Source: a virus
Strand: one strand, 5' to 3'
DNA: 31,196 nt
Virus record (IMG/VR): IMGVR_UViG_3300043773_001994
Location: 1-31,196 of that record
The notes below the pieces were generated by a model, which was not told the DNA's origin, made no database searches, and saw nothing but the letters and a program-made list of their open reading frames with translations. This document shows, one piece after another, positions 5,930 through 19,640 of the stretch. The position numbers and the translations under genes were made by a program. Each line of letters opens with the position of its first letter. The first letter of the stretch is position 1.

Positions 5930-8900
5930 ATGGCCTCCTCCACACCATTCCGCCCAGTCACCACCATCCAGGAGCCAGGCCTCCTCGGGATGCCGCGCAC
6001 CTACACCTCCCAGCGCGAGGTCGCCGCAGAGACCGGCGCACCCGCACGCGGCAGCGTCCTCGGCAATGTCCTCGGCACCCAGTTTGCCACCCACATCGTG
6101 CTGGACGCCTCCATCCAGCCCAAGGACGGCAAGCGCATCCTCGTCGTCTCCCACTGCTCCGCCCCCGCCTGGGCCATCCTCCTCGGCAGCGATGACCGCC
6201 AGGAAGGCCGTGGCGAGCACCTCTACTCCCAACAGGTCGTCCCCACCCCCTCGCAAGCCACCATCGATGCGGACCACCTGAGCACCTACCAGCCCATCGA
6301 TGAATCCAAAACCCTCAAGCGCACCAAGATTCCGCGCAAGAAAAAGACCGATGGCACCTACGAGTCCGGCTACCCAAAACAACAGGTCAAATCCATCGGC
6401 GTCGATGATCTCACACCCCAGAAATTCAAGATCCAGACCACCATCGTAGAGACCTCCACCACCGAGACCCTCGCCGCTGCGGACGTCAACAACATCCCCA
6501 CCCCCGCCACCCCCACCGGAGATCAAGCCAAGATCGTCCACCAGAAGCTCAACGACGATCAATACAAGAAAACCGTCACCGAGGAAATCATCGTGGAGAA
6601 TGCCTCTCCCCTCCTCGGCGAGGAATACGGAGACCTCGTCACCAAGACCACCAGCGAACTCCTCGTCCCGGATGACACCCTCGCCGATACCGGACTCGCC
6701 GTCCTCTCCTCCACCGTCGAGCCCATCGGCAACGGCAAGAGCGTCAAGACCACCAAGACCGTCAAAGGCGGCGCATGGCCCGATCCGGTCGAGCAGGAGA
6801 TTGTCTCCGACGCCACCAAGCAGCCGCCCGCCCGCTACTTGCGCGACCTAATCCGCACCACGGTGAAGAAGATGGTGAGCGCCGTGGGATCAAGCACCCT
6901 CACCGGGAATCAAGTGGCGAAGTCCTACAAGCGCGAGACCCCCGACCGCGTGGCAGAGACCGTCACCACCGAGGAACTCAACCTCACACTCACCGCCATC
7001 GACTCGGGCGTGCAGCAGAAGCCGTTCGTCACGATCACCGAGGTGATGACCCCCGGCCCGGCGAAGGTGCTGCCGACCAACCGCAGCGGATCGGCCAAGT
7101 TGGTGTATGAGCAGGGCACCAACCAGATTTGGGAGAACACCGAGGAGGTCGCCGTCGCCCGCGAAGGTCCGGCAGGAAGCGACAAGGAAGCGAAGCCGTT
7201 TGTCTCCATCCAGACTGACAAGAGATACGCCACCGATCCGACCATCAACACCACATCGGGCAGCGCCAATCTCATTTTCAACGACGGCACCGTGCAAGCC
7301 TATGAGGTGAGCGAAGTCACCGCCACTGCCAAGCTCGGCGCGGCGGGCACGGCGACCGACCAGAAGCCGTTCGTCACGCTCCAGACCGTCAAGACCTACG
7401 AGGCGACGGACAACCTCGGGGCGGGTGAGGTCGGCTCGACCAACAAGATCTACGACGACGGCACCACCGAGGTGTATGAGAAGAGCGTGGTGAACGCCAC
7501 GGCCCGCGAGGGGCTGAAAGGCGTCGAGACCAGCGCCCAGCAATGGGGTGCCATCAAAAGCACCACCAACTACACCGCCGACTCAACCGCGCCAGCCGGA
7601 GGGAGCGTCCAGATCGTCTTCGCGCAGGGCACCACCACGGTGTATGAGCAAACCACTACGGACCCGACCGTATCCGGCAGCAGCACGGACGTCGATCCAC
7701 AGCAATGGGGCAAGATCACGTGGAATGGCAGTTACTCCTCCTCTTCCAGCGGTGATAAATCGCGGCAGGTTTGGAGCAACGGTGTCGATTCGGTGTTCCT
7801 CAACGAGACGGCGTCTCTTTCGATCAGCGGCGGCAGCACGGATGTTGACCCACAACAGTGGGGTAAGATCACGTGGAACGGTAATTATTCCTCCTCTTCC
7901 AGTGGTGATAAATCGCGGCAAGTCTATTCCGGACCGGGAGGATCGGTGTTCCTCAACGAGATCGCTTCGGTCGCTCCGAGCGGCGGCACCTTGGAGAAAG
8001 ACAGTGCTGCTTGGGGATCAGTCACATGGAACGGCAGTTACTCCTCCTCTTCCAGTGGCGACAAGTCGCGGCAAGTTTATTCCGGACCGGGCGGCAACGT
8101 CTATCTTAACGAGATCGCTTCGGTCGCACCGAGCGGCGGCACCTTGGAGAAAGACAGCGCTGCTTGGGGATCCGTCACATGGAACGGCAATTACTCGGGA
8201 AGCCCGTCCGGCGACCGCTACAAGCAGGTCGCGAACATCGGCGGCAATTCCGTTTACCTCAACGAGACCGCTTCGGTCGCTCCGAGCGGCGGCAGCAAGG
8301 AGGTGGACCCGAACGCTTGGGGCTCCATCACGTGGAACGGCACATTTTCCAGCGCCTCCGGCGGCACCCGCAGCCAGAAGGTGGCGCAGGTTGGCCCCAC
8401 CTCGGTTTACAAGAACGAGACGCCTGTGCTGTCAGTGGCGGGCGGCAGCTTCACCTCGGCGCAGGAGAAGCACCCGCTCTACACCACGGTGGAGACCAGC
8501 AGTTTTGCCACGACATCAATACTCGGCCAAGGGGACTCGCGTTCCAAACAGGTGTTCGCGCTCGGCGCGGAGCGGGTATTCGAGAATATCAGCCGCGTGG
8601 TCACCAGCACGGGCACCCGGACCTACGGCACCATGGTGAAGTTCACGGCTCCGTCTGTTCTTCTCAGCATGAAAAGAACAGACCTGATGCGAAGGGACGG
8701 AGGGATTGACGCCATTTGGAACCCGGTGATCGAGGAAGGATTCGAGGGTTTTCTCCCTGCTCAAGTGACCGAGAAATACTCGGATAACGGAGGTTTTTCG
8801 GGTGGATCAGTTATCAACTTTGGACCAACCCCGATAAAAATCGCAACCCCTTTTGGGAATGTAAGCATTGGCCCGACGCTTCATGGGGCGATCAATCTGG

Positions 8901-9067
8901 TTTGGTCGCTTTCAAATGATAGGACTTACTATAATAATTCCGATCAGATCCTCATTCCTGCCACGCGATACGCAACATGGAGGGGGGTAGGCCGCGTGCT
9001 GGTGGGTTACGAAACGCAGCCGCATCTTTCGGGATTCATCACCCGCGAAATTCACATCACGTTATGA
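5930..9067 (+). CDS. Large repetitive tail fibre / tail protein, 1045 aa
   Basis: Residues 1-~120 look like a folded attachment domain and ~120-300 form a charged beta/linker region. Three diverged repeats then start with Lys-Pro-Phe-Val (residues 364, 422 and 479, about 57 aa apart). A transitional copy follows (Gln-Gln-Trp-Gly, Trp at 539), then five near-identical 51-aa units (about 588-842) and a more distant copy (about 846-890). The C-terminal ~150 residues are unique and end in a beta-rich segment. Such repeats suit a long trimeric fibre shaft with a receptor-binding tip. The coding strand is strongly C-rich up to about 6840 and balanced after it, which suggests a recombinant gene. The stop overlaps the next start (ATGA). 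Confidence 0.72.
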   Translation: MASSTPFRPVTTIQEPGLLGMPRTYTSQREVAAETGAPARGSVLGNVLGTQFATHIVLDASIQPKDGKRILVVSHCSAPAWAILLGSDDRQEGRGEHLYSQQVVPTPSQATIDADHLSTYQPIDESKTLKRTKIPRKKKTDGTYESGYPKQQVKSIGVDDLTPQKFKIQTTIVETSTTETLAAADVNNIPTPATPTGDQAKIVHQKLNDDQYKKTVTEEIIVENASPLLGEEYGDLVTKTTSELLVPDDTLADTGLAVLSSTVEPIGNGKSVKTTKTVKGGAWPDPVEQEIVSDATKQPPARYLRDLIRTTVKKMVSAVGSSTLTGNQVAKSYKRETPDRVAETVTTEELNLTLTAIDSGVQQKPFVTITEVMTPGPAKVLPTNRSGSAKLVYEQGTNQIWENTEEVAVAREGPAGSDKEAKPFVSIQTDKRYATDPTINTTSGSANLIFNDGTVQAYEVSEVTATAKLGAAGTATDQKPFVTLQTVKTYEATDNLGAGEVGSTNKIYDDGTTEVYEKSVVNATAREGLKGVETSAQQWGAIKSTTNYTADSTAPAGGSVQIVFAQGTTTVYEQTTTDPTVSGSSTDVDPQQWGKITWNGSYSSSSSGDKSRQVWSNGVDSVFLNETASLSISGGSTDVDPQQWGKITWNGNYSSSSSGDKSRQVYSGPGGSVFLNEIASVAPSGGTLEKDSAAWGSVTWNGSYSSSSSGDKSRQVYSGPGGNVYLNEIASVAPSGGTLEKDSAAWGSVTWNGNYSGSPSGDRYKQVANIGGNSVYLNETASVAPSGGSKEVDPNAWGSITWNGTFSSASGGTRSQKVAQVGPTSVYKNETPVLSVAGGSFTSAQEKHPLYTTVETSSFATTSILGQGDSRSKQVFALGAERVFENISRVVTSTGTRTYGTMVKFTAPSVLLSMKRTDLMRRDGGIDAIWNPVIEEGFEGFLPAQVTEKYSDNGGFSGGSVINFGPTPIKIATPFGNVSIGPTLHGAINLVWSLSNDRTYYNNSDQILIPATRYATWRGVGRVLVGYETQPHLSGFITREIHITL
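7691..8455 (+). repeat. Five in-frame tandem repeats of 153 bp in the tail fibre gene
   Basis: The Trp-Asn-Gly codon block recurs at 7721, 7874, 8027, 8180 and 8333, exactly 153 bp (51 codons) apart. Each unit carries Trp-Gly-x-Ile/Val-Thr-Trp-Asn-Gly, a Ser/Gly-rich turn, Arg-Gln-Val or a similar strand, an Asn-Glu-Thr/Ile strand and a Ser-Gly-Gly-Ser/Thr spacer. Units 1-2 and units 3-4 are most alike at DNA level, which points to recent duplication. Copy number may vary by recombination. Confidence 0.92.
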
Positions 9068-11576: not shown

Positions 11577-11843
11577 ATGGACCCGCAACCCAAAGAGTTC
11601 GACCGCAGCCCCGAGTTCTTCGTCGCCGAGATCGCCCACCAGTGGGTGTCCTCTATCGACCGCAAGGCCGGAGGCGACATCACCATCAACAAGAAGCAGG
11701 ACATCGACCCCGAGAAGGGCGTGTTCTTCGACATCTTGGAGATCCGCATTGGCCGTCAGATGGAGCGTGTCGCACAAGACGTGAAGCCCGCCGAGTTGGA
11801 GCCGCTGCCAGCCATTCCTGCGGCCTCAGCCCTTCCAGCCTAA
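11577..11843 (+). CDS. Small hypothetical protein, 88 aa
   Basis: It starts 5 bp after the preceding stop, so is probably co-transcribed with the structural genes. It is acidic in its first 20 residues, mixed in the middle and ends in a Pro/Ala-rich tail. Its last 18 bp overlap the end of the leftward repressor gene, so the two transcripts collide. No family recognised. Confidence 0.55.
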   Translation: MDPQPKEFDRSPEFFVAEIAHQWVSSIDRKAGGDITINKKQDIDPEKGVFFDILEIRIGRQMERVAQDVKPAELEPLPAIPAASALPA

Positions 11844-12269
11844 CGCCTTCGCCGTCTGCTGCACCATCAGACGCACCGCATGGTTCTCCAGCGCCAACCG
11901 GCCCATCCACTCCAGGCACCCTCGCAGTTGGTCATCCAGCCCGAGGTCGGCGTCCAAACGCTTCGTTTCCAATACTGGATCCTGCGCCCCACGCACCACC
12001 ACCTGCCCACGCACGCATGGCGGAGTCAAATCCAGCAGATATGCCTCCAGCAACCGCGCACGGCTTTCCTTGCTCAGAACCTTCATGATCCGATCCAGCA
12101 CATCCACACGAGGATATCGGTGAGTCGACAGATAATGCCCCAGCGTTCCGCCTGGCACCTTGCATTGCCGAGACATCTCTGACATGTTGCCGTCGAAATC
12201 ATCCGCAATCACATTGCGCAACTCTGCCATAAACCGTGTGCCTATCACCTTCGCTCGCTTCGTGCTCAT
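11826..12269 (-). CDS. HTH transcriptional repressor (CI/Xre-like), leftward
   Basis: The 147-aa product has a helix-turn-helix at about residues 28-55 (Met-Ser-Glu-Met-Ser-Arg-Gln-Cys-Lys-Val-Pro-Gly-Gly-Thr-Leu-Gly-His-Tyr-Leu) followed by a helical C-terminal part, and no recognisable LexA-type peptidase domain. It is transcribed away from the integrase with attP between them, a usual arrangement for a lysogeny repressor. Its upstream region holds a TCTTG-N9-CAAGA dyad, 18 bp before the start. Alternatives are an antirepressor-type or late-gene regulator. Exact targets are unknown. Confidence 0.72.
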   Translation of the reverse strand: MSTKRAKVIGTRFMAELRNVIADDFDGNMSEMSRQCKVPGGTLGHYLSTHRYPRVDVLDRIMKVLSKESRARLLEAYLLDLTPPCVRGQVVVRGAQDPVLETKRLDADLGLDDQLRGCLEWMGRLALENHAVRLMVQQTAKALGWKG

Positions 12270-12287: not shown

Positions 12288-12306
12288 TCTTGGCGAAAGC
12301 GCAAGA
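12288..12306. promoter_or_regulatory. Candidate repressor operator dyad
   Basis: TCTTG (12288-12292) and CAAGA (12302-12306) are perfect inverted half-sites separated by 9 nt, just upstream of the leftward repressor start. The dyad overlaps a TTGGCGAAAG stretch that is the reverse complement of the motif at 1671-1680. Autoregulation is the simplest reading. Confidence 0.45.
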
Positions 12307-12314
12307 CCTTTTAA

Positions 12315-12334
12315 TGCCCACCCGAGTGCCCACC
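12315..12334. promoter_or_regulatory. Left (P) arm-type integrase sites
   Basis: Two exact TGCCCACC copies at 12315-12322 and 12327-12334, 12 bp apart, lie about 100 bp left of the tRNA-derived core. Three further exact copies lie on its right. This matches attP sites of tyrosine integrases with an N-terminal arm-binding domain. Confidence 0.62.
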
Positions 12335-12425
12335 TACCCCCCTAAAACAGGCACCAAACACCCCCTGCCCCATGCGAAAAACCAACGCAAACTCAAGGAA
12401 ACCACCAATTCTCGCACTTACTACA

Positions 12426-12473
12426 GGACTCTTAATCAATTGGTCCTTGGTTCGAATCCAAGCCGGGGTACTA
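12426..12473 (+). other. attP: attP core: 3' part of a tRNA-Lys-like gene
   Basis: The stretch contains an anticodon-loop-like CTCTTAA (CTT anticodon), then a perfect T-arm (CTTGG-TTCGAAT-CCAAG at 12446-12462), a 3' acceptor strand CCGGGGT (12463-12469) and discriminator A (12470). The matching 5' half is absent: no ACCCCGG lies at the expected distance and the left anticodon stem does not pair. It is therefore a tRNA fragment of the kind carried by phages that integrate into tRNA genes and restore their 3' end. Arm-type repeats on both sides and the adjacent integrase support attP. Confidence 0.82.
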
Positions 12474-12510
12474 CTCCCACAAGGGTTTCAGTGAAAAGCC
12501 TAACACGAAG

Positions 12511-12557
12511 TGCCCACCGCAAATGCCCACCAACTCAAAAATTGCCCCTTGCCCACC
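12511..12557. promoter_or_regulatory. Right (P') arm-type integrase sites
   Basis: Three exact TGCCCACC copies lie at 12511-12518, 12524-12531 and 12550-12557, between the core and the integrase start. The first pair mirrors the spacing of the left pair (13 versus 12 bp). They also argue that the integrase does not start at the upstream ATG inside this repeat. Confidence 0.62.
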
Positions 12558-12584: not shown

Positions 12585-13622
12585 ATGACATGGACCAAGA
12601 TCGCTGAGAACCTCGTCCGCCACCCCAGTGGAACGATCTACCTCCGCGCCAAGGTGAGCGGGAAGAAGATCCGCCAAAGCCTCAACACGACCGACCTGCG
12701 CCAAGCCAAGCGCAAACGGGACTCGACTCTGGAAGACCTCCGCCACGCCGCATCCCTCGCCGGCGAAAACATCGAATCCCTGGCCGACGCCCTCGCGCTG
12801 GAAAAATCCCTCACCCTCGGCAAACCGAAGATCAAGCAAGCCACCAAGGACTACTACGAGCACCTGTTCCTGAAGTTGTCAGAATCCCTACCCGGCCACA
12901 AGAACCCAGCCACATGGTCCCCGGAGGACGCCCGCAAGTGGTGGTCCATCCACTGCAAGAGCAACACTGCCGCCATGCACGCCAATACGGCCCTCGCCAT
13001 CGTCAAGCGCATGATGAAGCTCGTCATCGAGCGAGGCATCCGCCGCGACGATCCCACCAAGGACATCAAACGCCTGAAGGTGCCCAAGACCCGCATCGAT
13101 GACCTCCCCACCCCGGAACAGATGTATCTGCTCATCCGCACCATCCGTGCCTCAAAACGCCCGCACAGCCAGGAGTCCGCCGACATGGTCGCCTTCCTCG
13201 CGTGGAGCGGGCTGCGCATCTCCGAGCTGCAAACCATGCGCTGGGAAGACATCGCCGAGCCGTGGATCACCATCACCGGCGGAGAAAAGGGCACGAAGAA
13301 CAACGAGGTCCGACAAGTGCCACTCAATGACCACCTGCGCATCCTGCTGGCCGTCCGCCGCTGGGAAGGGGCACATGGTCCCATCTTCCACATCCTCACG
13401 CCCAGGCTGGCACTGGACGCCGCCTGCAAGCGCGCTGGCATCCGCCACATGCGCATCCACGACCTCCGCCACTGGTTCACCAGCCACTGCATCGAGAAGG
13501 GCATCGATGTCGTCACGCTGGCCACATGGCTCGGGCACAAGGATGGCGGAAAAACCCTGCTGGCCACCTACGCCCACCACCAGAAACTCCACAGCCTTTC
13601 CAGCGCAGATAAGTTGAATTGA
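12585..13622 (+). CDS. int: Tyrosine site-specific recombinase (phage integrase)
   Basis: The 345-aa protein integrates and excises the phage at the adjacent attP. Residues ~8-55 form a basic arm-binding-like domain, ~85-165 a SAM-like core-binding domain and ~175-345 the catalytic domain. The catalytic set is visible: Arg211 (Ser-Gly-Leu-Arg), Lys238, His292-x-x-Arg295, His318 (Leu-Gly-His-Lys) and nucleophile Tyr329. The ATG at 12585 is preferred because the protein then opens with the usual arm-domain start; the in-frame ATG at 12510 lies at the edge of an arm-site repeat and adds 25 residues unlike the family. It is transcribed away from attP. Confidence 0.93.
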   Translation: MTWTKIAENLVRHPSGTIYLRAKVSGKKIRQSLNTTDLRQAKRKRDSTLEDLRHAASLAGENIESLADALALEKSLTLGKPKIKQATKDYYEHLFLKLSESLPGHKNPATWSPEDARKWWSIHCKSNTAAMHANTALAIVKRMMKLVIERGIRRDDPTKDIKRLKVPKTRIDDLPTPEQMYLLIRTIRASKRPHSQESADMVAFLAWSGLRISELQTMRWEDIAEPWITITGGEKGTKNNEVRQVPLNDHLRILLAVRRWEGAHGPIFHILTPRLALDAACKRAGIRHMRIHDLRHWFTSHCIEKGIDVVTLATWLGHKDGGKTLLATYAHHQKLHSLSSADKLN

Positions 13623-18756: not shown

Positions 18757-19449
18757 ATGACACCAGAATTCAAACCATTCCCGAAAATCCCACGCCTGTC
18801 CCGCGAGTGCATCGTGACCGAGAAAATCGACGGCACCAACGCCAGTATTTTGATCATTGAAAAAGACAAACCATGCCCGCCGACCATCAACGGCCTAGTC
18901 ATGAGTTCTTATGGTCACGTTTTTATAAATGCAGATGGAACCCAGAAATGCACCTACATCCTCGCCGGTAGCCGCAACCGTTGGATCACCCCGGCAAACG
19001 ATAACCACAGCTTCGCCATATGGGTTCGAGAAAACGGCGGCGAACTCATCAAACTTGGCCCCGGCCATCACTTCGGGGAATGGTGGGGCAGCGGCATCCA
19101 GCGTGGCTACGGCCTCACGAAAGGAGAGAAGCGATTCAGTCTCTTTAATGTCTCCCGCTGGCACCTGCACGGCACCGAACCACAACGAATCATCACTGCC
19201 GACCCGCGCATCGAGAAGTGGACTGAAAAGTTGCCACCATGCGTCGGACTGGTCCCTGTGCTTTATCGCGGGTTTTTTGACACAACCCGTGTTGAGACAC
19301 AACTCGCAATCCTAGCCAAGAACGGATCGGTGGCAGCTCCAGGATACATGAATCCCGAAGGAGTGGTCGTCTATCACGCCGCTGGCAACGTCAGCTTCAA
19401 AAAGACCATTTACAAAGACTCCGAACCAAAAACCAATCATAAACCATGA
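18757..19449 (+). CDS. RNA ligase family protein (nucleotidyltransferase fold)
   Basis: The 230-aa product carries the covalent nucleotidyltransferase motifs in order: motif I Glu-Lys-Ile-Asp-Gly-Thr-Asn (Lys23 is the AMP acceptor), an Arg-containing Gly-Ser-Arg-Asn-Arg-Trp (71-76), motif III-like Phe-Gly-Glu-Trp-Trp-Gly (106-111), Arg-Phe-Ser-Leu-Phe-Asn-Val (126-132), motif IV Pro-Glu-Gly-Val-Val-Val (Glu201) and motif V Phe-Lys-Lys-Thr (214-217). It lacks the OB domain of DNA ligases, and its length suits compact phage RNA ligases (Rnl2/DRB0094-type). It should seal nicked RNA, perhaps tRNAs cut by a host defence nuclease. The stop overlaps the next start, ACC-ATGA. Confidence 0.83.
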   Translation: MTPEFKPFPKIPRLSRECIVTEKIDGTNASILIIEKDKPCPPTINGLVMSSYGHVFINADGTQKCTYILAGSRNRWITPANDNHSFAIWVRENGGELIKLGPGHHFGEWWGSGIQRGYGLTKGEKRFSLFNVSRWHLHGTEPQRIITADPRIEKWTEKLPPCVGLVPVLYRGFFDTTRVETQLAILAKNGSVAAPGYMNPEGVVVYHAAGNVSFKKTIYKDSEPKTNHKP

Positions 19450-19640
19450 CACCATGCTCACGCTGCGCATCCACCTCACCCAACTCCTCCTGCTTTGTGT
19501 GTGCGGAGCCGGAACAGGAAGAAAAACCCTACGACGACTGCGACGATGACAACGGGCACGACGACTACCTCGAACGCATCCTAGACCGCGCCGACCGCTT
19601 CTACACTGAACAAAAAGACCGCGAATTTGAAAGACCATGA
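19446..19640 (+). CDS. Small Cys-rich acidic protein, 64 aa
   Basis: Four Cys lie in the first 20 residues (Cys-Ser-Arg-Cys, then Cys-Phe-Val-Cys), forming a plausible zinc-binding knuckle. A very acidic, helical C-terminus follows. It is ATGA-coupled on both sides, directly after the RNA ligase. A co-regulated partner or adaptor is possible; no family recognised. Confidence 0.55.
   Translation: MTPCSRCASTSPNSSCFVCAEPEQEEKPYDDCDDDNGHDDYLERILDRADRFYTEQKDREFERP

Follow-up and report, generated by a model that had tools for sequence, protein, structure and literature searches.

Five direct octamer repeats around a tRNA-Lys(CTT) core form a probable attP site in an uncultivated temperate tailed phage

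The attachment site of phage lambda is not a tRNA gene. In mycobacteriophage Pixie (Cluster K3), the attP core is 47 bp of tRNA-Lys sequence, two arm sites stand to its left and three to its right, all of them direct, and int is adjacent (PMC3203893). In Oenococcus oeni prophages tRNA 3' cores lie between two and three direct repeats that were proposed to be integrase arm sites (PMC8074189). Here we analyse a locus at positions 12315-12557 of a 31,196-bp virus record, the whole of which is hereafter called the window. We read it, with a probability of about 0.93, as the attP of a temperate tailed phage in which octamer repeats are the arm sites of the integrase and a tRNA-Lys(CTT) gene is the target. 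The architecture is already known, and the window site is a fresh but ordinary example of it, nearly the same as that of Pixie, with which it has in common the tRNA-Lys core, the left pair, the three direct right sites and the adjacent int. Pixie differs by a sixth, inverted site and belongs to another phage group with a mycobacterial host, the two being likened by architecture and not by sequence. The Oenococcus oeni prophages are alike in their tRNA 3' core with 2 + 3 direct repeats, but these repeats are others (e.g. TTTGCCACA) and, in the described case, the identity block falls short of the anticodon loop. Lambda is comparable in its heterobivalent integrase class and in having arm sites on both arms, and its integrase is the top fold match of the window integrase (1z1g); however, IHF, Xis and Fis sites are mapped in lambda (PMC4880445), while none were identified in the window.

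The gene content of the window is that of a temperate tailed phage, with genes for capsid (PF13252), RecT, DnaB helicase, terminase and tyrosine integrase. The record continues across the putative attP into phage genes on either side and so appears to represent the unintegrated form of the phage. A search of a phage collection with the first 25 kb of the window gave no close DNA match. In a probable tail protein of 1045 aa (5930-9067), a motif of the type DPQQWGKITWNGSYSSSSSGDKSRQV is repeated several times in near-identical form, at about 7550-8600.

The octamer TGCCCACC is present in five exact copies, all on the + strand, within 243 bp of intergenic DNA between a leftward helix-turn-helix (HTH)-like gene (11826-12269) and the rightward integrase gene. 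An exact-copy scan confirmed the earlier description of two copies to the left and three to the right of a tRNA fragment. The two left (P) arm sites are located at 12315-12322 (reading AATGCCCACC with its flank, 12313-12322) and 12327-12334, and the three right (P') arm sites at 12511-12518, 12524-12531 and 12550-12557. The start-to-start spacing is 12 nt on the left and 13 nt in the first right pair, as had been claimed for the paired copies (12-13 bp), and the third right copy follows after a further 26 nt (2 x 13). No one-mismatch copy was found near the five on either strand. Over the whole window and on both strands the octamer occurs 8 times, compared to 1.67 expected from dinucleotide shuffles, and this count was reached in none of 100 shuffled windows. 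A motif-blind search for any 7-mer pair at 10-14 nt recurring as a pair 100-300 nt away returned the octamer locus as the sole match in 31 kb and gave no match in 200 dinucleotide-shuffled windows, indicating that the arrangement is not due to chance. This test was preferred to one based on how often the most frequent 8-mer occurs when intergenic DNA is shuffled (at least five copies in 88 of 20,000 shuffles), since the latter also counts overlapping homopolymer runs. A literature search combining the octamer with integrase found no attP paper among titles and abstracts.

Between the two groups of octamers lies the 3' half of a tRNA, with the anticodon loop CTCTTAA (12429-12435), the T arm CTTGG/TTCGAAT/CCAAG, the acceptor strand CCGGGGT and the discriminator A. 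In keeping with this being a fragment, ARAGORN detected no complete tRNA anywhere in the window. A search of viral contigs with the T arm and acceptor strand gave two records. One of them, L005, is a virus record in which a complete tRNA-Lys(CTT) borders another integrated element and precedes a different integrase. This tRNA is identical to the window over 46 of 46 positions (12427-12472, + strand), a stretch that starts two bases ahead of the anticodon loop and ends two bases beyond the discriminator, and grafting the window core onto its 5' half regenerated a tRNA-Lys(CTT) recognized by ARAGORN. The exact core announced by the earlier note thus exists, with limits slightly inside the 12426-12473 first given, and the match bears out tRNA-Lys(CTT) as the target. 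The predicted acceptor stem found no support: the one complete tRNA in which this core was found begins with GCCTCGG instead of ACCCCGG and forms two G.U pairs with CCGGGGT. Beside the L005 integrase, which is unrelated to that of the window phage, two copies of GTGACAAA spaced by 11 nt (211-229, reverse complement) form a separate arm-like pair; the tRNA-Lys(CTT) end is a common target of different elements. The second record, L004, has 33 bp of the same tRNA end in common with the window and adjoins yet another integrase-like gene. Since identity with the L005 tRNA begins two bases upstream of it, the anticodon loop is probably where crossover takes place, as a 7-bp overlap region at 12429-12435. 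The window site would fit the 'anticodon-centred' crossover class defined in Islander (PMC4383910).

The gene to the right of the octamers (12585-13622, + strand) encodes a tyrosine integrase of 345 aa (PF00589, E=7e-19; phrog_1 integrase, E=2.7e-42), with the full R-K-H-R-H-Y catalytic set at R211, K235/K238, H292, R295, H318 and Y329. Its start is most likely the ATG at 12585, 27 nt past the last octamer; an alternative GTG upstream, at 12510, would overlap the right arm. In the fold search the alignment to the lambda integrase tetramer spans the full length of lambda Int. About residues 1-60 form a predicted arm-binding domain, in which strands and a helix are modelled between residues 10 and 43 with a pLDDT under 50.

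The left arm could be compared with that of an integrated relative, L006, whose integrase side lies off its contig. Its capsid protein is 82% identical to that of the window phage, and its similarity to the window extends over the capsid region and the HTH gene (81% identical). This phage homology stops just past two copies of AATGCCCACC, 12 nt apart, which are the same two sites as in the window. Beyond them, an unrelated spacer of 94 bp leads to a tRNA-Thr(TGT) 3' half, read by eye from its anticodon loop, T arm and acceptor end, and then to different DNA, presumably of the host or of another element. An integrated prophage is predicted to have this order of parts at its P-arm end. The anticodon loop TTTGTAA, at 19295, occupies the position equivalent to CTCTTAA in the window; from octamer start to loop, the distances are exactly 114 and 102 nt in either phage. 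The 94-nt spacer is nevertheless only 33% identical between the two, which is chance level (the 95th percentile of shuffles being 35%). A fixed distance from octamers to crossover without conservation of the spacer points to a requirement of an integrase-DNA complex. The earlier note had counted an integrated relative with a different crossover against its reading; L006, with its tRNA-Thr, is such a relative, yet it supports the octamers as arm sites, because they keep their register while the target differs. The fragment end is represented here by tRNA-Thr, and a complete tRNA-Lys at the int end was seen only in the unrelated element L005. Downstream of the tRNA-Thr fragment, at about 19453-19475, L006 has a further repeat pair, TTGGGCAACTGATTGGGCAACT, which looks like arm sites belonging to a second element in that tRNA-Thr.

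Similar arrangements with other octamers were found beside int in other phages. Repeat pairs flank a probable core in three of the eight annotated integrase regions examined, those of the Lactobacillus phages LF1 (TGGTGCAC) and JNU_P11 (GCGGTCA) and of the Streptococcus phage JX01 (TTGGGGC). Scanning viral contigs for the octamer pair itself gave five matches. One (L031) is L006 again; three (L029, L030 and L032) are set in unrelated sequence and appear to be chance matches. In the fifth, L028, two TGCCCACC pairs (12 and 11 nt) stand 162 nt apart at 6834-7014, beside a distant integrase, in what looks like the attP of a Lactobacillus-like phage. All four of these sites resemble that of the window in having direct-repeat pairs 11-12 nt apart, with the pairs separated by 160-190 nt, and all four integrases are distantly related to the window's; LF1, JNU_P11 and JX01 differ from it in the octamer. 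Common descent of the octamer in L028 and the window was rejected: identity between the two integrases is only about 25%, other repeats accompany the integrases that are closer to that of L028, and with attP sites so numerous an occasional exact coincidence is to be expected. The shared octamer is thus most likely a convergence.

The HTH-like gene bordering the P arm is divergent from int (- strand) and may encode a repressor or a directionality factor. A family search with it gave no match, its structure model is helical and of low confidence, nothing matched this model in a fold search, and searches of viral contigs with the gene found nothing beyond L006. Could the octamers be operators, through which the HTH protein represses its own gene and int, around a tRNA core that is still the true attP core? 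The right-hand copies do occupy the expected place of the int promoter, and L006 conserves the octamers along with the HTH gene. However, the repeats are direct, non-palindromic and placed on both sides of the core, and their constant register to the crossover would not be expected of operators of the HTH gene. A better operator candidate is a 16-bp box upstream of that gene (12290-12305, - strand), CTTGCGCTTTCGCCAA (TTGGCGAAAGCGCAAG on the + strand), which is identical in L006 and occurs there twice, upstream of the HTH gene (19145) and upstream of an SNF2-type helicase gene (419). This box may serve the HTH regulator as an operator or as a shared promoter element; it is distinct from the octamers, whose distance to it shifts by 11 nt between the window and L006. 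Together with the pairs of pairs that unrelated phages carry beside int with other octamers, these observations make operators an improbable explanation.

Sites for excisionase often take the form of direct repeats close to the P arm. The octamers might be sites of this directionality factor, or common to Int and Xis; neither a xis gene nor excisionase sites were identified in the window. Such sites are, however, usually confined to one arm, whereas the octamers flank the core on both sides like the arm-type sites of lambda, Pixie and Oenococcus, and we regard this explanation as very improbable, more so than operators. The arm-site reading of the octamers is the one that we retain, on the grounds of the 46/46 core shared with a real tRNA and of the octamer pair recurring at the prophage-host junction of L006 at an equal distance from the crossover. 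The site had also been called a complete attP. That word goes too far. The core and the direct repeats on both sides are present, but no convincing IHF site accompanies them: matches in the window all have two mismatches, with no clear site in the spacer, while L006 has one match with one mismatch.

The anatomy of the site, the identity of its core with a real tRNA gene, the junction register of L006 and the class of the integrase are read directly from sequence. From these, integration may be pictured as follows. The N-terminal domain of the lambda-type integrase would bind the octamers, two on the P arm and three on P', while its core-binding and catalytic domains would engage the tRNA-Lys sequence at the anticodon arm. 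A bend in the DNA between arm and core sites, roughly 100 nt long, would bring these together. Strands would then be exchanged across the 7-bp anticodon loop of a tRNA-Lys(CTT) gene in the presumed host. The identical phage copy would replace the 3' part of the tRNA and, because it is identical, the gene would stay functional, next to int; the displaced 3' fragment would come to lie at the opposite end, next to the P arm and the HTH gene.

We also looked for the host. Scanning a genome collection with the integrase returned solely a 23%-identical Peptoniphilus integrase, and tRNAs from relatives of that genome showed only ordinary tRNA similarity to the core. The search for a complete tRNA-Lys carrying the core, proposed in the earlier note, thus succeeded in a virus record (L005) and not in a host genome: none with both this tRNA and this prophage was found in the scan with the integrase, nor was an integrated copy of the window phage itself seen.

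The locus supplies an attP-integrase pair that can be tested, from a phage group without cultivated members. Between the window phage and L006, the left arm sites would have been kept, at exactly the same distance from the crossover, while the tRNA target switched between Lys and Thr. This suggests, tentatively and with rather less than even confidence on our part, that target specificity is swapped as a cassette comprising the core, and probably the catalytic domain of the integrase, with the arm-binding domain unchanged. With arm sites and geometry fixed and the tRNA target changed, the two phages offer a natural comparison that may be useful for finding which domain of the integrase sets the target.
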